IMG/VR virus record: IMGVR_UViG_3300032265_001314
Coordinates: 27,272 to 91,271 of that record
DNA from: a virus
Reading direction: 5' to 3' (one strand)
Length of the DNA: 64,000 nucleotides
The translations under genes and the position numbers were made by a program. Under the pieces are notes generated by a model, which made no database searches, was not told the origin of the DNA, and saw only the letters and a list, made by a program, of their open reading frames with translations. Shown here in pieces: positions 6,830 through 38,040 of the stretch; within the stretch, counting starts at the first letter, position 1; the number at the start of each line of letters is the position of its first letter.

Positions 6830-8881
6830 TCACTTCGTATTTGTACGGTATACTCCATCCCACCCTTCGCCTGGTGGATTCTTAGCATATTCATCACAGC
6901 GGTCTGCCCACATATCGTAATAGCCGTCCATCTTACCATCAAACTTTCCTTTGAGACTTAGTGCTATGCTTTTAGCAATAATAAATCTCTGAGCATTATA
7001 TGCGTTCATCATAGTATTGTGTTCATTCTTAGCATTTTTATATCCAATAGGAACTTTTGAAAGCTCACCTAATACTGTGAATATATTCACACCTTCTTTT
7101 TTACCCTTGACTGCTAGACAATCTAGAGGTAGAGTAAAGTATGCATCTTTCACGTATTCGTTTGTCTTAGGACCTATTACCATTGCGACGTGATATGGCT
7201 TGCTCTGTCCTTCAAGTCTGCTCGCCAAGTTGACGCCGTCCCCGAGACAAGTATAATCGAAACGTTGGCTACTACCCATGTTACCCACAACAACAGTATC
7301 AGTGTTAATGCCCAATCCCATACCAAATGGTGGAACACCTTCAAGCGCAACTTCTCTGTTAAATTCATCTAGGCTTCCTAACATTTCCAATGCTGTCTTT
7401 ACAGCATCCTTTGCGTGTTTTTCATTGCTAAGTGGAGCGTTCCAAAAAGCCATCTGTGCATCGCCGATGTACTTGTCCAGTGTTCCGTGATTCTCCAGTA
7501 TCTTCTTAGTCATCGCTGTCATGTAGCGATTCATTATCTTGGTTAATCCCTGAACATCGCTTCCGTAATGCTCACTAATAGTAGTAAACCCACGAACATC
7601 AGTAAACATGATTGATAGCTCAACTGAGTCTCCTCCCAATGCGAGCAGTTCGGGATTCTTCTGTAACCTAGCTACTAAGTCTGGGCTTAGGTAAGTTCCA
7701 AACTGTTTCTTTATCTGTTGCTTCTGAAGGAACTCGGATACGAATTTAACTCCGTAGGCATGCAGAGCGACCAAGATGATTCCAGATACAAAAATGGTTG
7801 CGTCGCATAACCATAGAGAGCTAGTAAAGAGATACTGACTAAGTAGCACACTCCCGCCGACCAATACAATAACTGAGGCAAGTCCAACATACATCCACCT
7901 TGTTAAAACTAGAAGTAAGATACCAGCAACAACCAATGCGATAGTTTCTGCGCCTTCTGCCCATCCGGGTCTCTGGATATTTACCCCATTTATCATAGTT
8001 CCTAGCACCGCTGCCTGTAGATCTTGTGGCCATATAGCACCCTTTGCTGTTGGTACAGGATTAGCTATACCAGCTGCGGTAGTGCCTACTATAACAACAG
8101 CACCTCCTAGATCATCTGGTAAGTTTATAGCACTGTAGCTCTTGTTAGTCTGGCTCCAGTCTATCCATATGCGTCCTAGATTGTCTGTAGTTATTGCACC
8201 AAACTTAGGTATGCGCATCTTATCAACACCGTCTTCGTTCAGTTTAATCTGCACGGTGCTATCACCTGCCATAACACGGAGAGTTTCTAGAGATAGGTTA
8301 GGATATAGCTTACCACCGCTAGTGATCAATAAGGGTATCCTGCGATTAACACCATCTATCTCAGGTAGTGTATTGATAGTTCCTACACCGACTGCTGCTG
8401 ATTCTAGCTCAGGGATGTTAGCTATGATACCCGGATAGGGTATGATAGTATCCATATATTTTGCGTTAATGACCGCGGCACCCGGATTCTTGGGAGTGTT
8501 TTTTCCCTTGATGCTAGGCACGTTGCTGAGCAAGATGGGGTAGTTTTTCATAGTATTAGCCAATATACTATCACCGCCCATACGATCGGCTTCAGGCATC
8601 ATTATGTTCCAAACGACCAAACCTGCTTTATGTTTATAGAGATCTTCTATTATACCAGCATATACATCGCGTTTAAACGGCCACTGTCCGTACTTGTCTA
8701 GTGTAGCTTCATCTATGTTAACAGTTATTATGTTGTTAGCTGTAGGAGCTTTATTAGTGATGAGAGTATCAAAATAGCGTAGCTTTACGCTTTCTACAAA
8801 GGTAGGGTTAGATAGTTTTATAGCCACTACTAATAATAAAGTTATTAGAGCGGTCCAGGGGCTCAATAATATTCTTTTCAT
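6830..8881 (-). CDS. CHASE2-domain class III adenylate/guanylate cyclase
   Basis: 683 residues. Order: membrane span 8-21, periplasmic CHASE2 sensor about 30-300, three spans about 311-376, linker, then a class III cyclase catalytic domain from about 420. The metal-binding Asp is in MFTDVRGFTTISEHYG (Asp 428) and the second in KYIGDAQMAFW; FDYTCLGDGVNLASRLEG carries the substrate Asp and the transition-state Asn/Arg. All key residues seem present, so an active enzyme making cAMP is likely. It starts 8 bases after the curlin-like gene and is the distal gene of the curli-like operon. CHASE2 cyclases and FecR genes are typical bacterial signalling genes; finding one here is unusual for a phage. 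Confidence 0.9.
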   Translation of the reverse strand: MKRILLSPWTALITLLLVVAIKLSNPTFVESVKLRYFDTLITNKAPTANNIITVNIDEATLDKYGQWPFKRDVYAGIIEDLYKHKAGLVVWNIMMPEADRMGGDSILANTMKNYPILLSNVPSIKGKNTPKNPGAAVINAKYMDTIIPYPGIIANIPELESAAVGVGTINTLPEIDGVNRRIPLLITSGGKLYPNLSLETLRVMAGDSTVQIKLNEDGVDKMRIPKFGAITTDNLGRIWIDWSQTNKSYSAINLPDDLGGAVVIVGTTAAGIANPVPTAKGAIWPQDLQAAVLGTMINGVNIQRPGWAEGAETIALVVAGILLLVLTRWMYVGLASVIVLVGGSVLLSQYLFTSSLWLCDATIFVSGIILVALHAYGVKFVSEFLQKQQIKKQFGTYLSPDLVARLQKNPELLALGGDSVELSIMFTDVRGFTTISEHYGSDVQGLTKIMNRYMTAMTKKILENHGTLDKYIGDAQMAFWNAPLSNEKHAKDAVKTALEMLGSLDEFNREVALEGVPPFGMGLGINTDTVVVGNMGSSQRFDYTCLGDGVNLASRLEGQSKPYHVAMVIGPKTNEYVKDAYFTLPLDCLAVKGKKEGVNIFTVLGELSKVPIGYKNAKNEHNTMMNAYNAQRFIIAKSIALSLKGKFDGKMDGYYDMWADRCDEYAKNPPGEGWDGVYRTNTK

Positions 8882-9429: not shown

Positions 9430-10548
9430 TTACTTACTTTGATTTATGGTTATCTTGGTTCCATTTTGGTTATTAACATTCTGCACTATCGTCACTCCAT
9501 CTTGTACGAGAGTGAGGGTGCTGGGAGAATCCTTATCTAGATTCACAGAAGCAACGTGTCCAGGAGCGATCCTATATAGAGTCAGATTAGTATCTACGAG
9601 CATATACTTTAATCCTGCTGCTTTATTAGGCGGGTACTTAGGCAACATCGTATTGAATGAACTAAGTTGATCGTCTAATAACTGGCTGTTTAATAAATCT
9701 AGCATATTTATTAAGAAGCTAGAGTTGTCCAAATAAGCCATATCTAGCATACTCTGTTGTGTAACGAATGCATCGTCTAGCATACCTGCTGTGTCTAAGA
9801 ATTTTTGATCTAGGAAATTGATATCCAGTGCATTTTTATTATTATCTGCTCCTTTTGCTACTTGCTTTACCTGTTTAGGAGGAGTAACAATTAATAGGTT
9901 ATTGATCTGATCGGGATTGAGATCTAATATAACAGGTTTACTGGGTTTGCTTTCTCTGCTAGCCACTGTAGTAGATTGAAAAGCTTTGTTGAGTATTATC
10001 GTGCCCATACCCGTGTTTACACTAATCTCTCCGACCTTACAGTCTTTTTCTATATCTTTAAACCCAGTAGGGCAGCTTGGAAGAAGTATGGCTAAGGTCC
10101 TGCCTAGCTCATCTACCGTGAGAGTAAAGTCTGTCCCACGAACACCGATAGTCGCGCTAGGTGTATCTATCTTTATGCTTTCAGGAGTATGTTTGGCTAT
10201 CTGACCGCTAGCAAAACGGGCAGTTCCCATCGCTACTTTCATACCAAGCTTACCAGCATCGCTTGTGGTATCATCGTAGACAAAACTATCTATTAAGAGT
10301 CTGCTCTGTTCGGTTATCTCTACTAGGCTATCATCTTTAAAAGTTATCCTAGTTTTGCTTTTAGCTGTAACGATAGTATCGTCCATTTCAACTTCTGTAT
10401 TGATATTAGTCGGGGTGCTCTTCTTGTCTCTCTGTAGTTCAGTGAGACCTGTTTGCTCTGTGATTTTACCTACAGATGTTGCTAAAGACTCAGTTTCCGC
10501 TATGAACAGAAATAGTATTGTTAGAGCCGTTGCTCTTAATTTGTACAT
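9430..10548 (-). CDS. FecR-domain secreted protein
   Basis: 372 residues. Signal peptide of about 23 residues, then a FecR domain (VEMDDTIVTAKSKTRITFKDDS, GTARFASGQIAKHTPESIKI, TPSATIGVRGTDF). The C-terminal third has Leu/Asp-rich helices and a final Asn-rich segment, VTIVQNVNNQNGTKITINQ, that itself resembles a curlin repeat. FecR domains in such proteins sit in the periplasm and are often beside CHASE2 or fibre genes. The first 59 bases overlap the end of the upstream curlin gene. Confidence 0.8.
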   Translation of the reverse strand: MYKLRATALTILFLFIAETESLATSVGKITEQTGLTELQRDKKSTPTNINTEVEMDDTIVTAKSKTRITFKDDSLVEITEQSRLLIDSFVYDDTTSDAGKLGMKVAMGTARFASGQIAKHTPESIKIDTPSATIGVRGTDFTLTVDELGRTLAILLPSCPTGFKDIEKDCKVGEISVNTGMGTIILNKAFQSTTVASRESKPSKPVILDLNPDQINNLLIVTPPKQVKQVAKGADNNKNALDINFLDQKFLDTAGMLDDAFVTQQSMLDMAYLDNSSFLINMLDLLNSQLLDDQLSSFNTMLPKYPPNKAAGLKYMLVDTNLTLYRIAPGHVASVNLDKDSPSTLTLVQDGVTIVQNVNNQNGTKITINQSK

Positions 10549-11176
10549 TGCTGTCTACCGATCCCGATTGGACTACACCTATCGTGTTAGTACTACCTGT
10601 AACACTTACACTTGCTACAAATCCGTTGGCACCAGCTGGACCATCTTGGCTTATATTAACGGCGTTGTACCCACCCACTATGCTGATATTGCTAACCGCA
10701 CCTAAGAGATTATTGCTAGTATTATTGATAAGGGTGCTGTTGTGATCACCCTGTATAGTTGTGCTGCTTTTGCTTTTTGCACCAGTAGTAGTATTAATAG
10801 AGTTGTTTCCACCTTCTGCATTGGCGACTATGATAGCATCAGTACAGGAAGATCCAGCACCGCCGCCTGCACCTGTTCCGCAGTTTACAGTTACAGTATT
10901 AACACTACCGTTTACGTTTGAAGTTAGGCTAGCGCCATCGCCTTGTATAGTAAAGTCACCTACGTTTCCACTGCCTATCTGTGAGATATTAATGATTTGG
11001 TTGTTACCGTGGAACACATTGTTTTTGAGTTCTGTACCAGCAGCATTGTTTGAGCCCGATTGCGTAATCGTGATCGTGCTGTTGCTTCCATTTTGATCCA
11101 TATAGACGCTGTTCACGGTTTGAGCGAAAGCGTTTGTAGATAAGAAAATTAATGCTGCTGCTACTAGGTATTTCAT
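10490..11176 (-). CDS. Curlin-repeat fibre protein 2
   Basis: 228 residues. Signal peptide (VAAALIFLSTNAFA), then about eight curlin-like repeats, e.g. VYMDQNGSNSTITITQSGSNN, IINISQIGSGN, AVNISQDGPAG, TIGVVQSGS. Composition is dominated by Asn, Gly, Ser, Thr, Val and Ile. One repeat contains a Cys pair (VNCGTGAGGGAGSSC). Likely the second fibre subunit or nucleator of the module. Start overlaps the csgG stop. Confidence 0.8.
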   Translation of the reverse strand: MKYLVAAALIFLSTNAFAQTVNSVYMDQNGSNSTITITQSGSNNAAGTELKNNVFHGNNQIINISQIGSGNVGDFTIQGDGASLTSNVNGSVNTVTVNCGTGAGGGAGSSCTDAIIVANAEGGNNSINTTTGAKSKSSTTIQGDHNSTLINNTSNNLLGAVSNISIVGGYNAVNISQDGPAGANGFVASVSVTGSTNTIGVVQSGSVDSNVQIKSNGSNNTISVHSGN

Positions 11177-12544: not shown

Positions 12545-13846
12545 TTAGGATGCTTTACAGACGAATTCCTCAAACTTTCCGTTGGGAGGGAGTGGCCATT
12601 CCTTTTCATAACGTGTAACCGTATAGGTAAATGCATCACCTAGTGCCTTACGAGCGATAGCTATTAGAGCTTCTCTCTGTGTCTCCGTTATAGGATCGTC
12701 TGTTACTATCTTATATTCGATCATTTCTCTGCTGTGCTGTATGACCTGATACTTGCGTATGATAAAGTCTAGCTCGTCAAAGTTATACATACCAACCATG
12801 GGCCAATAGCGCCTACCATCCGGCTGTATGATTAGATTGCGTTCTCTACCTACTACACGCTTTAGTGTTAGCAATCCTCTACCACAACTGCATTCCGGTC
12901 CACGTTCAGCATAGTCGCCTATAGAATAGCGTATCATTGGACTAGCATAATTGTGTAGATCAGTAACTACTACCCTGCCAATAGACCCCGCTGTGACTGG
13001 AGCACCTCGATCGTCTACAACTTCTACTACGAGATTTTGATCCATAGTATGATAGAGATCGCTGTCTGGGCATTTAGCTGCGATAGAACCCATCTCTTGG
13101 CTGCTATATGAATCTTCGATATCTAATCCAAATAGCTGCTTAGTCCTAACTCTGAGGCTATCGCTAACAGTCTCGCCTATAGTTTTGATATGTTTAAGTT
13201 TGAACTGGGGAATATCCTTCTCCCATATATCTAGCAGGGCCTTTAGATTGTTGGGATATACGATGAGGATGTTAGGATTAAAGCCGCGCAATAGCCTATC
13301 TTGTTCTTTGATATCAGTCCATATATTGATAGACAGCATAGGTCCAGTTTCGTGCATTAGCGCATAAGGAGCACCCCAGTTAGATATTTCTTTATTTTCA
13401 TGGTGTCCTGCTCGTATAGAAGCTAACCTTGACTTAAAGTCTCTCTTGTGCCAAAGTATCTCTTGATAGTTGAATGCGTAGAAGAACTGTGCTACTGTAT
13501 CTGTAGCTTTGATTACTACAGGTTCGCCTGTTGACCCTGAGGTCTTGACTACGCCCGGCTTGCCGTGATCCTTTGGTACTTCTCTAGCAAAGAAACTTTC
13601 ACCTGCCGATTGTATATCTCTACGAGAAAGCAAAGGTAGGGCAGTGATATTATCTACCGATATACCTTTAGGCTGTAATCCGGACACTCTTATGCGTTCT
13701 AGGAACCATTCACTGTTCTTCACGTGATGATTTACTAATGACTTGAGCTTTACGGTCTGTATATCCCTAAGAGCCTTGGGAGTATACCACTGAAGCTGTG
13801 ATAGAGTAGCCGTTAATGTCTTGAGTGCTTCTATCTTACTTGCCAT
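12545..13846 (-). CDS. CapK/phenylacetate-CoA ligase-like adenylating enzyme
   Basis: 433 residues. VVKTSGSTGEPVVIKATD is the AMP-binding P-loop; YSSQEMGSIAAKCP and SPMIRYSIGDYAERG are the A5/A7-like motifs of the PaaK/CapK branch of the ANL superfamily. These enzymes activate a carboxylate as acyl-AMP. It is the last gene of an eight-gene overlapping operon and starts inside the 3' end of a methyltransferase gene. Contains one copy of the AGACCCCGCTGT repeat (12983), read antisense to the gene. Substrate unknown. Confidence 0.8.
   Translation of the reverse strand: MASKIEALKTLTATLSQLQWYTPKALRDIQTVKLKSLVNHHVKNSEWFLERIRVSGLQPKGISVDNITALPLLSRRDIQSAGESFFAREVPKDHGKPGVVKTSGSTGEPVVIKATDTVAQFFYAFNYQEILWHKRDFKSRLASIRAGHHENKEISNWGAPYALMHETGPMLSINIWTDIKEQDRLLRGFNPNILIVYPNNLKALLDIWEKDIPQFKLKHIKTIGETVSDSLRVRTKQLFGLDIEDSYSSQEMGSIAAKCPDSDLYHTMDQNLVVEVVDDRGAPVTAGSIGRVVVTDLHNYASPMIRYSIGDYAERGPECSCGRGLLTLKRVVGRERNLIIQPDGRRYWPMVGMYNFDELDFIIRKYQVIQHSREMIEYKIVTDDPITETQREALIAIARKALGDAFTYTVTRYEKEWPLPPNGKFEEFVCKAS
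12983..12994 (+). repeat. AGACCCCGCTGT repeat, copy 1
   Basis: Exact 12-mer inside the CapK-like gene, + strand. See the finding on this repeat. Confidence 0.85.
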
Positions 13847-27261: not shown

Positions 27262-27758
27262 CTAGGTACTAGTTCCTCTATAGCCTTTGGTGTATAGTCT
27301 TGCACTTCAACAGAGCAGTTGATATAACGCTCTCCTGGACTAGGGTTCTGATGGATATGCCCGTGTAGGTTGTACTGTACCTTGAACATCCCACTCTCGT
27401 GGATAGGAACGTGTGTTAGAACACAATTAAACTCCGGAAACATACGCCACATCAAGACCTTCTGGAAGTTGACCTGTATGTAAGATGCTTTACCATTGTC
27501 GTGATTGCCTAAGATCAAACGCTTGCGCCCCTTGAGTCTGGGCAAGACCTTATGCCCGTGCTCAAAGTAAACGTCACCGAGGTGATAGACGATATCGCTA
27601 TCACCTACTACACTGTTCCAACGTTCTACCATATGCTCATCCATCTCTTCAACAGATGCGAACTGTGGCCGGATAAGCTCGCCACTAGTACTGTCAGTGA
27701 ACTTTAGTATGTTACTATGACCAAAGTGTGTATCGCTCACTATGAATATATTACTCAT
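27258..27758 (-). CDS. Small metallophosphoesterase
   Basis: 166 residues. SDTHFGHSNILKF, YHLGDVYFEHG, LILGNHDNG, LTHVPIHESG and NLHGHIHQNPS give the complete two-metal calcineurin-like site. The compact form with DTHFGH is common in phages, where the substrate is unknown. Third phosphoesterase in the window. Confidence 0.85.
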   Translation of the reverse strand: MSNIFIVSDTHFGHSNILKFTDSTSGELIRPQFASVEEMDEHMVERWNSVVGDSDIVYHLGDVYFEHGHKVLPRLKGRKRLILGNHDNGKASYIQVNFQKVLMWRMFPEFNCVLTHVPIHESGMFKVQYNLHGHIHQNPSPGERYINCSVEVQDYTPKAIEELVPR

Positions 27759-29229: not shown

Positions 29230-29258
29230 ATATTAACATAAAAAATTTAATGCGTCAA
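29230..29258 (-). promoter_or_regulatory. Possible sigma70-type promoter for tilS
   Basis: Minus strand TTGACG followed after 17 bp by TAATAT, with more AT-rich sequence behind. The -10 match is weak. Confidence 0.35.
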
Positions 29259-29264
29259 GTGGTA

Positions 29265-29272
29265 TATAAATA
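29265..29272 (+). promoter_or_regulatory. Candidate late-type octamer
   Basis: TATAAATA, an exact T4 late-promoter octamer, four bases before the ATG of the radical SAM gene. Confidence 0.4.
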
Positions 29273-29276
29273 TCAA

Positions 29277-30338
29277 ATGCAAAACAAGTTCTGTAGAGTG
29301 TTATCTAACGCATTAAGTTTCAGGGTACCGGGAGATACAGGAAAATTATCCTTTAATCCCTGTTGTCTATATGATGATTACATCGAATTCAATTATGAAA
29401 ATTTTAAGGATGAAAGACTCAAATATACAACTGCTACTGATTTCCTCCCAGGTTGTAGTAAATGTAAATTGAAAGAAATTACGCACGGAAGCAGTATGAG
29501 AACAGATGCTTTTGAACGTATACCCGGAGATATCGGTAATGACATCTATAAATTAGAAGTAGTATTAGATACTACCTGCAATGCTGCTTGTATACAATGT
29601 GGACCTATACAAAGTTCTCTATGGAGGAAAGAATTAAAACTACTTGATTTTCCGGAATCTAATGTCAAAAAAGAATTAGATAGATTGAAAGTATTAATCG
29701 ATATAGATAAAGTAAAAGATTTTCATTTTTGGGGAGGAGAACCATTAGCAACCAATACACACTTAGATATGATAAGAGAAATAAAAGATCCTAGCACAGT
29801 GACACTGAGATATGCTACTAATGGCAGTATCTTTCCAGATGAAGAGCTATGGAATCTTTACTCTAAGTTCCATAAGGTAACTTTTAATATCAGCATAGAC
29901 GGTATAGGTGATCAGTTCCACTATATGAGATGGCCATTAGAATGGAAAAAAGTATCTAAGAATCTTCTTAGGTTTAAGAATGAATGCTCTGACAACACCC
30001 GATTGTTTATAAATTACTGTGTGGTTCCGCTGAACAGCTTTTACGTTTTAGAAATGGAAGAATGGTTAGATGCGAATGCTAAGATATCGCATAATAATAA
30101 ACCTATAGAATTAAGCTACATACGAGGAGAAGGTACTCTAAATATTTCAAACACACCGATGGCTCTTAGAGAAAAGGTTTGGTCAACCCTAGGAGAAAAT
30201 CATACAGTAAGTAATATATTAAGAGAAGTTCCAGTCAATGATCATAGACATATGGTTAACTATCTAGATCATTGGGATAAGGTCAGGAAGTTAGAATGGC
30301 GATCGATATTTCCAGAAGTTGGAAAATTTTATGATTGA
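29277..30338 (+). CDS. Radical SAM protein (twitch-domain type), copy 1
   Basis: 353 residues. TTCNAACIQCG is the C-x3-C-x2-C iron-sulfur motif (Cys 101, 105, 108), preceded by GCSKCKLKE, a possible auxiliary-cluster (twitch/SPASM-like) cysteine pair; FHFWGGEPLATNTHLD is the GGE SAM-binding motif. The start is set at MQNKFCRVLSN, which aligns with the paralogue (MKNTFCVFLSN); the longer frame would begin inside the opposite promoter. Similar proteins occur in marine phage genomes next to sugar- and peptide-modifying genes; reaction unknown. Confidence 0.85.
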   Translation: MQNKFCRVLSNALSFRVPGDTGKLSFNPCCLYDDYIEFNYENFKDERLKYTTATDFLPGCSKCKLKEITHGSSMRTDAFERIPGDIGNDIYKLEVVLDTTCNAACIQCGPIQSSLWRKELKLLDFPESNVKKELDRLKVLIDIDKVKDFHFWGGEPLATNTHLDMIREIKDPSTVTLRYATNGSIFPDEELWNLYSKFHKVTFNISIDGIGDQFHYMRWPLEWKKVSKNLLRFKNECSDNTRLFINYCVVPLNSFYVLEMEEWLDANAKISHNNKPIELSYIRGEGTLNISNTPMALREKVWSTLGENHTVSNILREVPVNDHRHMVNYLDHWDKVRKLEWRSIFPEVGKFYD

Positions 30339-30340
30339 AC

Positions 30341-31465
30341 TTACAGTTTATAAAATCTCGTTGTGCTTATGCTTTTGAAACCTTTGGCTATGTTGCCACC
30401 TATTAAAGATCTCTCATTAATGTTTTTTCCTAGATAGTCTATCATTTCTATATATTTTCCTTTGTTCCTCTCATCTATATTTTCCCAAAACCAAGATTCT
30501 TTTTCTCTTATCAGCTTAACACCTCCCTTTTTAGTTTGGAATATAGGGTGTGTATGTGAGGGGTATATGATAGGATGAAGCACATCTCTAAAATTCTCTA
30601 TATGAGAACTTCTTATCTTTGATAACATAGTCCTAGTATAAACATCTAATTGTGCTACTCGCTTTACTTCTTGGGCTTGTTTGACAACGATCTCTGGCAG
30701 ATCGGGAGTCCAATAAAAGAATTCAGTATCATACGATCCCTGCATATTCTTCCTAGTAAACTCAGGCATGGGTTGATGATAGGCATTACTATCAGTAAAG
30801 AAACTGTAATAATCAGTTCCGTCAAAATGAACTAACGGCTTGTCTACTCCTAGTATATGAGCTACCTTTTTACCTTTATCTACTAGTTCCTGAGTGTCGC
30901 GATCATTGTAATATGCCGACTTGCATACCATCCTGACATTTGGCTCTAGACCTAGAGATATATCTTCTGGAGTTTGTGCCTTATTGACGATATCAAATGT
31001 AGGTGTTGAGATATCAACAAACCTTATCTTGGTATTTGGATGTAATAGATTTTTATATTTCTGTAGATGCGGCACTGCTTCGAAATCAATTTCTCCATAT
31101 TGATTCCTGGGATCTCTGTCAGTACCGTTTAGATTCTTTCTGTCTAATCCAGGCACACTCATAGATATCTCGTCTAGGAATATATCATTATCAATAAAAC
31201 TATGCAATACGTTTGTGCTATCAGCACCGCCGCTAAATTGTAAGAGGAGATAATCATATTTCTCTCTCAGCTGTTTAGCCCGCAACCTGTATAATTCCTT
31301 TAAGGGAACCTCGATAGGTACGGTCCAATCTATAGCACCATATAATTTATCATTAAATATCCATTCTAGACTGTATCCAGTACGTTTCTCTTCTAGCATA
31401 GCTTCGATAGTATTATGGAATCTACGGAAACCAGTTTGATAATATCCTATTTTTTCGTTAATCAT
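30341..31465 (-). CDS. PP-loop ATP-pyrophosphatase (asparagine synthetase-like)
   Basis: 374 residues. YLLLQFSGGADSTNVLHSF is the PP-loop (S-G-G-x-D-S) that activates a substrate by adenylation; the surrounding region resembles the synthetase half of asparagine synthetase B without its glutaminase domain. Converges on the radical SAM gene and overlaps the next gene as ATGA. Amidation or thiolation of an unknown substrate is the family expectation. Confidence 0.75.
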   Translation of the reverse strand: MINEKIGYYQTGFRRFHNTIEAMLEEKRTGYSLEWIFNDKLYGAIDWTVPIEVPLKELYRLRAKQLREKYDYLLLQFSGGADSTNVLHSFIDNDIFLDEISMSVPGLDRKNLNGTDRDPRNQYGEIDFEAVPHLQKYKNLLHPNTKIRFVDISTPTFDIVNKAQTPEDISLGLEPNVRMVCKSAYYNDRDTQELVDKGKKVAHILGVDKPLVHFDGTDYYSFFTDSNAYHQPMPEFTRKNMQGSYDTEFFYWTPDLPEIVVKQAQEVKRVAQLDVYTRTMLSKIRSSHIENFRDVLHPIIYPSHTHPIFQTKKGGVKLIREKESWFWENIDERNKGKYIEMIDYLGKNINERSLIGGNIAKGFKSISTTRFYKL

Positions 31466-33807: not shown

Positions 33808-34896
33808 TTAAATTTTAAAGTGTTCTACTATCTCTGGGAATATCTTCTTCCAGTCCAGCTTACGGGCTGCATCGTGATATTCTATATACTGCATAAATTT
33901 AGCATATTCCGTTGGATCAAATTTATCCATTAATCTCGATTCATAAGATTCAATTCCATATTTTTCTATTATCGCTTGCTGTAGTGTAGGAGGAATGCAT
34001 CTTAGATTCATTATTCCAGTCGCCGCATGACCTTTCTTAAACCAAAATTTAGGTTTTACAGAAGGTATATCTTTTAGGAAATCGCAAACCCATTCGTTAT
34101 ATTCTTTTATATAGAATATATTAAATGGATTCACTGTGAAACTGATACTGAAATTTTTGTTATCAGTTTTTAAATTTGTAAATTTCCATAAATTTTCCTT
34201 TACTTGATTCCATTGGAGAGGCCATCTTATATAATTAAAATGATCACCTGTACCATCTATACTAAAATTTATTTTGATGCCTTTGAAAGAAAGCAAAAGA
34301 TCCAGGGTAGGTTGATCAGGAAATATACTACCATTAGTGATATAATTTATTATTATATCTTGTGGGTTCTTGATGTTCTTAAGTATCTCTGTATGTGTAT
34401 TAGTCTTGAAAGGTTCTCCACCAAAGAAATTTATAATTTTAACTTTATCAAAATCAATGAGATCATTGATAGCAGCAATAGCATTGGTCAAATTAACACG
34501 AGGCGGGGCCGCTGTTAAACCACCCAAGGTCTTTTGATTATACTCTCGCCAAGTAGTACTTGTCCAAGGGCCACACATTATACAAGCTGCATTACAAGTA
34601 TCATCTATCTGTATTTCTATTTTAGTAGGATCTCCAGATTGGATATCAGGATCATTAAATTCAACAAGATCAAATCCTTTTTGCCTTGGAGATATAATAC
34701 CTTTCTTTTCGACATTATAACAGTAAGAACACTCAGGTATCCAATCAGTTACTTCAGCTAGCCGAGCCTTTTGCTCTTGTACAGCCTGTTTATCAAACAC
34801 GCTAATATCTGTGTTTTTAATCCAACAGCATGATTTGACCTTATCAAAGTTGAAGTTGTATTGATTGGATAAAAAGACGCAAAAAGTATTTTTCAT
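33808..34896 (-). CDS. Radical SAM protein (twitch-domain type), copy 2
   Basis: 362 residues, paralogous to the product of 29277-30338 with the same motif spacing: DDTCNAACIMCGPW (Cys 101, 105, 108), CSYCYNVEKKG as the extra Cys pair, FFGGEPFKTNTHTEIL as the GGE motif and KINFSIDGTGDHFNYIRWPL shared nearly word for word. Reaction unknown; two diverged copies suggest different substrates. Confidence 0.85.
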   Translation of the reverse strand: MKNTFCVFLSNQYNFNFDKVKSCCWIKNTDISVFDKQAVQEQKARLAEVTDWIPECSYCYNVEKKGIISPRQKGFDLVEFNDPDIQSGDPTKIEIQIDDTCNAACIMCGPWTSTTWREYNQKTLGGLTAAPPRVNLTNAIAAINDLIDFDKVKIINFFGGEPFKTNTHTEILKNIKNPQDIIINYITNGSIFPDQPTLDLLLSFKGIKINFSIDGTGDHFNYIRWPLQWNQVKENLWKFTNLKTDNKNFSISFTVNPFNIFYIKEYNEWVCDFLKDIPSVKPKFWFKKGHAATGIMNLRCIPPTLQQAIIEKYGIESYESRLMDKFDPTEYAKFMQYIEYHDAARKLDWKKIFPEIVEHFKI

Positions 34897-36599: not shown

Positions 36600-37211
36600 T
36601 TAGCGATATAGTTTATTATAGACCTCGACTATAGATCTCCGTATATCTTCGATATTGTTAGGCATAGTAGTTTTTACATAATCTCTAGGTGGTATGAGTC
36701 CCAGAGATTCATAGGAAACTACTAAATCATAATCATAATCTAGCTTATCTAAAAGGAAATTATTGCGTGTGATAGCTTCTATCGAACCTAATATCGTTTT
36801 TTCTTTGATCTCCAAGCTGTAGTCCTCTATCACTTCTCCAGGATAAGTCCACCACTTTTTCCTCTCTTGTGCCACATAGTGACTCACGATAGAATCTATT
36901 TCATTATCTCGATAAAGTTTGATTTTAAATCCCTGGCCTTCTAGCAGTTGTCTATATGGAGTAACTCTGCTTATCTGATCGGGCATAAACTTTATGATAA
37001 AATCGCTCCTACCACTTTTGTAAAAGTGATAAAAATTTTCCTTAAGGCCATAGACATGATCACCATATCTGTCGTGTCTATTTTTAGCTTCTGCCCAAGG
37101 TTCTAGGAAATACGGTACATTATTTTCTTTCCCTAGATGTGTGGCTAATACTGTAGAACCACTTCGGTAATTTCCTAATACTATTACCGGCCATTTTGTT
37201 ATAGATATCAT
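36600..37211 (-). CDS. Sulfotransferase-like protein
   Basis: 203 residues. VIVLGNYRSGSTVLATHLGK is the 5'-phosphosulfate (PAPS) loop (Arg-Ser-Gly-Ser-Thr at about 16-20); EIDSIVSHYVAQERKKWW is the 3'-phosphate-binding region, and DLVVSYESLG a downstream family block. Transfers sulfate from PAPS to a sugar or protein. Sulfotransferases are common near sugar-modifying genes in marine phages. Confidence 0.75.
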   Translation of the reverse strand: MISITKWPVIVLGNYRSGSTVLATHLGKENNVPYFLEPWAEAKNRHDRYGDHVYGLKENFYHFYKSGRSDFIIKFMPDQISRVTPYRQLLEGQGFKIKLYRDNEIDSIVSHYVAQERKKWWTYPGEVIEDYSLEIKEKTILGSIEAITRNNFLLDKLDYDYDLVVSYESLGLIPPRDYVKTTMPNNIEDIRRSIVEVYNKLYR

Positions 37212-37235: not shown

Positions 37236-37247
37236 AGACCCCGCTGT
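37236..37247 (+). repeat. AGACCCCGCTGT repeat, copy 5 (hairpin form)
   Basis: Exact 12-mer followed after two bases by CTTATTTTATAAG (37250-37262), whose hairpin overlaps the stop codon of the leftward gene at 37256-37465. Confidence 0.85.
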
Positions 37248-37255
37248 GACTTATT

Positions 37256-37465
37256 TTATAAGCCAACCTTGATCTTTTGAGATCTAACAAATCCACAAGA
37301 ATCGCAGCTTTGGAACTGTATATAGTCACCGTAGAGATTCTTTTGTAGTTTATGATCCCACTTGCGCCAAACGTGTATGTTCCATCGGCACTTCCACGAA
37401 GATACTAACAACGGTCTGTCTGCTAGAGTTCTTACGAGATTTTCTTTATCGACCGAGCTTGCCAT
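37256..37465 (-). CDS. Small zinc-ribbon-like protein (paralogue of 57291-57530)
   Basis: 69 residues from MASSVDKENLVRTLADRPLL. Shares with the rightward gene at 57.3 kb the start MAS-x5-ENLVR-x-L, a central C-R, a W-x-x-W and the end IQ-x3-C-x2-CGF-x-R. The CDSC plus the upstream Cys could bind zinc. Flanked by AGACCCCGCTGT repeats on both sides. Confidence 0.6.
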   Translation of the reverse strand: MASSVDKENLVRTLADRPLLVSSWKCRWNIHVWRKWDHKLQKNLYGDYIQFQSCDSCGFVRSQKIKVGL

Positions 37466-37474
37466 ATAAAACAA

Positions 37475-37486
37475 AGACCCCGCTGT
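37475..37486 (+). repeat. AGACCCCGCTGT repeat, copy 6
   Basis: Exact 12-mer between the small zinc-ribbon gene and the candidate structured RNA. Confidence 0.85.
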
Positions 37487-37497
37487 TGGTAGATAAA

Positions 37498-37664
37498 GTA
37501 TTGGGAGGTACGAGTGTCGACCCTCTTTTCAGTGCCCGGGTTTCCAAGGTTACGATCGTTGTGCGCCCTTAAAGCCACCATCCATCTCCCGACCTCGACA
37601 TAGCAGGCTTACTAAGTAAGCAAAATCCACTATATCCGTGCAATCTGCACTGCCTCCCAAATAG
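37498..37664 (-). ncRNA. Candidate structured RNA, about 165 nt
   Basis: A 197-bp gene-free stretch. On the minus strand TTGGGAGG pairs with CCTCCCAA to close the whole element; inside are GTGCA-GAT-TGCAC, a compound stem TAGTGG...CTGCTA enclosing GCTTAC-TTA-GTAAGC, and further G/C-rich segments. It lies between the parvulin gene and the small zinc-ribbon gene and starts right after the parvulin stop. It lacks the hallmarks of tmRNA, RNase P, SRP and tRNA. It could also act on the + strand, where the pairing is equally possible. Confidence 0.45.
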
Positions 37665-37957: not shown

Positions 37958-38040
37958 TGGTGCCTGGGGAGGGACTCGAACCCCCGTTGTTTGTATTCCG
38001 CCTTACAAAAGCGGTGCTGTCGCCGCTGAGCCACCCAGGC
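37958..38040 (-). tRNA. tRNA-Thr (UGU) with long variable loop
   Basis: 83 nt with CCA encoded. Acceptor GCCTGGG/CCCAGGC, anticodon stem CCGCT/GGCGG with loop TTTGTAA (anticodon TGT), T-arm GGGGG-TTCGAGT-CCCTC. The variable region AATACAAACAAC is 12 nt, unusual for tRNA-Thr, and the D-stem is only three pairs. A second tRNA-Thr (UGU) of normal shape is at 62582. Confidence 0.85.

Follow-up and report, generated by a model that had tools for sequence, protein, structure and literature searches.

The window analysed here, a stretch of 64,000 nucleotides, spans positions 27,272 to 91,271 of the IMG/VR virus record IMGVR_UViG_3300032265_001314. The element of interest lies in it between two minus-strand genes: it begins 6 nt past the stop codon of a gene for a rotamase-like protein (Pfam Rotamase), and next on the same strand come a 12-bp repeat copy and a 72-aa ORF, with the nearest tRNA of the window, a tRNA-Thr (37958-38040), situated one gene upstream. 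The arms which the preliminary description had seen as closing a multi-hairpin element are present, TTGGGAGG at 37501-37508 and CCTCCCAA at 37653-37660 enclosing 160 nt. The adjoining repeat copy (ACAGCGGGGTCT, 37473-37486, minus strand) is likewise real and lies outside the RNA. The 12-bp motif has 13 matches in the window versus 0.9 expected; in the form [AG]CAGCGGGGTCT it is present 12 times over 12983-60474, on the minus strand only (e.g. 37475-37486, 37236-37247 and 60435-60474). Two pairs of copies have a spacing of 26 bp, one copy lies within the ORF at 12545-13846 and several are just upstream of starts, so that the motif may be a promoter of the phage or an element for processing. Elsewhere in the window, a gene for a CHASE2-domain adenylate/guanylate cyclase (6830-8881, minus strand) adjoins genes with curlin repeats and a FecR domain (9430-11176), a combination unusual in a phage. 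Two radical SAM proteins are encoded at 29250-30338 (plus strand) and 33808-34896 (minus strand), with an ORF between them (30341-31465) whose product by eye resembles a PP-loop-type protein, and the ORF at 36600-37211 (minus strand) has the look of a small sulfotransferase from its N-terminal GNYRSGST motif, with no Pfam match at E<=0.01.

The arms of the element can be read on both strands, and the covariance-model match (37501-37660; 113.8 bits with model R1 and 101.5 bits with R2) is on the minus strand; on the basis of this conservation the RNA gene is assigned to the minus strand, running from 37660 to 37501. An RNA from the plus strand was rejected, its fold being the weaker and the conserved core lying on the minus strand. 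The minus-strand fold has an energy of -56.1 kcal/mol (z -2.43; equally good folds in 3 of 200 shuffles) versus -44.2 kcal/mol (z -1.95) on the plus strand. The claim that pairing is far denser here than in the other gaps thus receives modest support from energy; the single-sequence fold is unusual only to a modest degree, and the proof is comparative. The sister copy in a 115,969-base record from a relative of the same virus (L002) is 86% identical and 162 nt long versus 160 nt in the window; the 2-nt difference falls in helix P5 and inside the one ORF that crosses the element (49 aa, 37432-37581, minus strand), in agreement with the earlier view that the element carries no reading frame. An apparent local hairpin, GUGC-AGAUU-GCAC, was discarded since it is broken in this sister sequence, the true partner of CAGUGC being GCACUG.

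Scans of IMG/VR and GTDB with the core sequence, followed by covariance models, recovered a family of at least 97 viral or prophage members, 93 of them distinct, of which 76 are left once close copies from redundant metagenome contigs are removed; most are ~125-175 nt long. In IMG/VR, exact-pattern scans on the core strands GGUCGG...CGUAACC...GGNAACC contributed further members, and a relaxed scan gave loci most of which, among the matches listed, are members. A scan with the 3' core strand alone yielded three new contigs, among them a member whose other core strand differs by one base (L157); nearly all contigs so returned carry the other conserved strand too, which indicates that the two core strands go together. 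The exact pattern has two matches in 84,980 species genomes, one in a Planctomycetota MAG (L154) and one in Rhizobium (L155), and a covariance-model search of 199 Rhizobiaceae added three members, so that a few genomes of this family, one of them from a named strain, carry the element. Covariance-model searches under stricter filters of samples of Pseudomonadota, Planctomycetota and Alphaproteobacteria found no members beyond the starting genomes, and none was found in E. coli genomes and plasmids. Searches of cultured phages by blastn, a weak tool for diverged RNAs, produced no match better than chance for the window element, L116, L139, L190, L188, L219 or the core. The family is almost confined to viruses and prophages, and exactly one copy is present in each of the 24 viral or host records checked.

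Before any covariance model was built, 26 members were segmented by hand. Model R1, built from 10 sequences and with E-values from a short calibration, finds all 26, 16 of which lie outside its build. It rejects chance pattern matches and T4 RNA C/D, and it found no further members at the loci of 86 contigs that carry relatives of two neighbour genes of the window; its single match elsewhere in the window (E=0.82) is noise. In an alignment of 10 sequences made with MAFFT only, 98.3% of the cells pair versus 81.4% after shuffling, and there are 55 cells with double changes versus 15.6 expected from shuffling; covariation is also seen in the 26-member alignment. In the 97-member covariance-model alignment, a kind that leans towards the model, 96.8% of the cells pair versus 69% on shuffling, double-sided changes number 746 versus 205, and pairing falls to 35-45% when the partner is slid by 1-3 columns. 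As members were selected on the core alone, the covariation of P1, P2, P3 and P6 is independent of selection. In these alignments P1, P2, P3, P5 and P6 covary, and P4 and the surrounding loops are nearly invariant. The suggestion of a new phage RNA, for which covariation among metagenomic homologues had been named as a test, is thereby strongly supported by homologues that do covary.

The comparison shows a predicted fold with an acceptor-like P1, a P2 leading to a three-way junction with P3 and an arm formed by P4, an internal loop and P5, and a separate P6; all coordinates that follow are on the minus strand. P1, the closing stem, pairs UUGGGAGG (37653-37660) with CCUCCCAA (37501-37508), and 8 of its 8 pairs change on both sides across members. 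P2a joins CAGUGC (37647-37652) to GCACUG (37530-37535) and covaries, appearing as CAGCGC/GCGCUG in L002 and as CAGUAUC/GAUACUG in L116 and L111. At the three-way junction a conserved CACG (37637-37640) pairs through its CG with the CG at 37537-37538, and this helix (helix 3 of alignment A5) is 96.2% paired and almost invariant. The outer pairs of the P3 hairpin, GAUAUAGUGG...CUGCUAUGUC (37597-37636), covary across members, and its upper stem is GCUUAC/GUAAGC in the window versus GCCUAC/GUGGGC in L002. The 5' strand of P4, GAGGU (37592-37596), is nearly invariant; P4 reads GAGGU/ACCUU in 85 of the 93 distinct members and, with compensatory changes, GUGGU/ACCAU in 8. It is followed by the highly conserved internal loop CGGGA (37587-37591; alignments A4 and A5), by the P5 hairpin GAU...AUC (37554-37586), variable in sequence and length, and by the strand GUA-ACCUU-GGAAACC-CG (37537-37553), which includes the ACCUU of P4 and is highly conserved in the 97 members. 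The P6 hairpin, GAG[GGUCGACA]CUC (37512-37525), covaries in 3 of its 3 stem pairs. An earlier pseudoknot model derived from two sequences (CGAG/CUCG versus CAGUGC/GCACUG) was abandoned when distant members proved nested with P6 as a hairpin of its own, and a parallel to the topology of RNase P was dropped along with it. Two Rhizobiaceae members, L174 and L175, dispense with P5 (GUGGU-CGGGAUA-ACCAU) and carry the compensatory P4 change, making them useful minimal versions for structure work. In L189 (4108-4223) P1 and P2 are fused and P6 is apparently absent, and it may be a monomeric variant.

The loop of P6 in the window has the 6-nt palindrome GUCGAC (37516-37521, minus strand), the proposed site of a kissing dimer. 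In the covariance-model alignment a central Watson-Crick 6-nt palindrome is present in 71 of 76 members with a 3-bp P6 stem and an 8-nt loop, versus 1.35% of the six-mers across the elements as a whole. These palindromes, which are partly shared by descent, come in 12 different forms (AUGCAU, GUCGAC, AGCGCU, UGGCCA, UGCGCA, CUGCAG, ACGCGU, GUGCAC, CGGCCG, GGGCCC, UCUAGA and GGCGCC), and two further loops have the G-U wobble palindromes AGUGCU and GCGCGU. In several members the palindrome is only 4 nt long or P6 is poorly defined. A structure-blind search for P6, which picked the wrong hairpin in some members, found 39 of 67 loops palindromic versus 1.8 expected. Vienna duplex energies for three of the bare loop sequences range from -4.7 to -8.3 kcal/mol. 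No 6-nt complement of the loop is present elsewhere in the RNA save for partial overlaps in 4 of 26 elements (window, L002, L118 and L142): in L118 and L142 the loops of P6 and P3 are able to pair, as are the P6 loop and UGUCGA of P3 in the window and L002, so that some members may have an intramolecular contact.

Such a palindrome could be accounted for without any dimer contact, as an extension of the P6 stem or a site in the DNA, the RNA itself being real. The flanking G and A are able to form a sheared pair, and the first pair of the palindrome can stack on P6; however, the complementarity of the two inner pairs is unusable inside a single hairpin, and the variety of 12 palindromes argues against a sequence-specific DNA-binding protein, leaving this alternative improbable. 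Selection for these two inner pairs would imply a second molecule, and the palindromes make homodimerisation of the RNA through a P6 kissing loop likely.

The genomic setting varies across the family. In 32 of the 97 members the element has a same-strand tRNA no more than 30 nt away, mostly 2-5 nt upstream; the element in L002 sits between tRNA-Thr and tRNA-Arg, and in arrays of up to 26 tRNAs it takes the place of one tRNA. Other members stand alone, some of them near late phage genes, as judged by eye from the ORFs. No conserved neighbour protein was detected beyond close pairs, and the neighbours do not otherwise cluster. This bears on the riboswitch-like leader entertained in the preliminary description, according to which the element would act in cis on the downstream gene, in the window that of the 72-aa protein. 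The position of the window element between two same-strand genes fits such a role, and the conserved junction could serve as a ligand-binding site, but the members lack a common downstream gene, lie within tRNA arrays or ahead of unrelated genes, and are in many cases followed by a tRNA rather than an mRNA. The nearest terminator-like site is upstream, none overlapping or following P1; a leader is disfavoured and appears highly unlikely.

In at least five members (L099, L112, L125, L192 and L153) stems resembling the acceptor, D and T arms of a tRNA surround the core, which suggests that these members descend from a tRNA or have converged on the way in which tRNAs are processed. The core of these members occupies the place of the anticodon loop, which, together with its small size and high conservation, would be in keeping with a self-cleaving ribozyme, also entertained in the preliminary description, or an insert that removes itself from a tRNA. 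Most members, however, lack a tRNA frame from which an insert could be spliced. The conserved positions lie in the interior, the possible cleavage sites near either end showing no conservation, and no ribozyme or intron of Rfam matches, so that little probability attaches to this reading. The long tRNA arrays also bring to mind an antitermination RNA like put of HK022, which would load RNA polymerase near the beginning of transcripts for late genes or tRNAs, given that read-through would be of help in such arrays and that several members are close to lysis- or terminase-like genes when neighbours are read by eye. The put RNAs, however, are two simple hairpins near the start of a transcript, whereas in the arrays the new element is in mid-transcript with tRNAs on both sides, and the palindromic loop would be left unexplained; there is thus only a slight chance that it is put-like. 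A packaging RNA comparable to phi29 pRNA is the least probable of all, as the similar size, the proposed oligomerisation by loop pairing and the terminase-like genes seen by eye near some members (e.g. L119) are set against a position away from terminase genes in most members, the lack of an Rfam match and, in phi29 pRNA, two different complementary loops and a gp16-type motor.

We instead favour a stand-alone gene for a stable phage RNA that acts in trans and dimerises, which we consider probable from the comparative evidence. The element would be transcribed together with the flanking genes or tRNAs and the RNA cut out like a tRNA, giving a free stable molecule that acts in trans; processing by tRNA enzymes cannot be general, because most members lie away from tRNAs. 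Two copies would then pair loop-to-loop via P6, giving a symmetric dimer in which the conserved P4 region is displayed twice. As a guess, this region might bind a partner constant across hosts, as would be implied by a core so constant across different phages. The tRNA-like features and the location in tRNA islands point to host translation or the tRNA-processing machinery as the target, a further guess that we regard as doubtful. The small size, clear consensus helices, nearly invariant core and a palindrome that mutation can disrupt and re-create render both dimerisation and target binding directly testable, and the single copy per genome in many phages and a few Rhizobiaceae genomes makes genetics possible.

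Comparison with known RNA families placed the element in none of them. Searches with Rfam 15 of the window and 14 loci at the gathering score recovered tRNAs only, and at E<=5 the window region, L099 and L111 gave only tRNAs and chance matches below the gathering score, with none inside the element; this bears out the earlier statement that it is not a tmRNA, 6S RNA, RNase P RNA, SRP RNA or tRNA. In the absence of a match in Rfam 15, tmRNA, RNase P, 6S, SRP, group I and II introns and known ribozymes were set aside. Among the open-access papers retrieved, covered mostly at the level of titles and abstracts, none was seen to describe the family. Judged from these sequence comparisons, the family is new, being absent from Rfam 15 and widespread in phages. 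It resembles tRNAs in the acceptor-, D- and T-arm-like stems of a subset and in its placement inside tRNA arrays, but differs in the conserved core that replaces the anticodon loop, the lack of an encoded CCA and the 8-nt T-loops of L099, L125 and L192. In a search for a complete cloverleaf with a normal anticodon loop, ARAGORN and Rfam called the neighbouring tRNAs only, and L099, L112, L125 and L153 were not called as tRNAs by ARAGORN.

With regard to loop-mediated association, the dimerisation initiation site (DIS) of the HIV-1 retrovirus drives homodimerisation through a 6-nt palindrome in a purine-flanked hairpin loop, the same arrangement as in P6, but belongs to the leader of an RNA genome and is otherwise unlike the new RNA. 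phi29 pRNA, also small and encoded by a phage, forms multimers through paired loops; however, it has another fold and a role dedicated to packaging, serving the gp16-type motor of phi29-like phages, and its two complementary, non-identical interlocking loops have no equivalent in the new RNA with its one self-complementary loop.

T4 RNA C and RNA D, the species 1 and 2 small stable RNAs (AF158101, 70908-71171), offer a closer parallel, being encoded where a tRNA cluster of the phage ends, and the fold of RNA C combines a T-arm with a variable-arm-like hairpin and an elongated arm resembling that of the anticodon. Unlike the new family, they lack the GAGGUCGGGA...GUAACCUUGG core and the RNA C loop is not palindromic; as homologues they were rejected, the T4 locus (L159) having no R1 match up to E=1. 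Within T4 RNA C (L159, 1409-1547, minus strand) the variable-hairpin loop CGUCAA and the UUGACG of the long arm are complementary, and an internal loop-loop contact is possible there. ROOL and GOLLD, as described in PMC12286853, are phage or prophage RNAs of unknown function near tRNA islands, homo-oligomers with kissing-loop contacts that form nanocages; many GOLLD members exceed 800 nt, and GOLLD is reported to bind ribosomes in pull-downs (PMC12286853). The new RNA shares with them a phage origin and a frequent location near tRNA islands, and its palindromic loops suggest that it may likewise self-associate, but at ~125-175 nt with one palindromic loop it could by that contact form a dimer at most. 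ROOL and GOLLD gave no covariance-model match to the 160-nt element; together with T4 RNA C/D they are its nearest counterparts in kind, unrelated by sequence or model. ROOL, GOLLD and T4 RNA C/D are structured RNAs without a known job held in phage tRNA islands. We tentatively propose, as possible rather than probable in its entirety, that the new family is an undescribed class of phage RNA, in part derived from tRNA, which forms a kissing-loop homodimer and acts through its nearly invariant core on a universally conserved host component, and of which T4 RNA C may be a functional counterpart.
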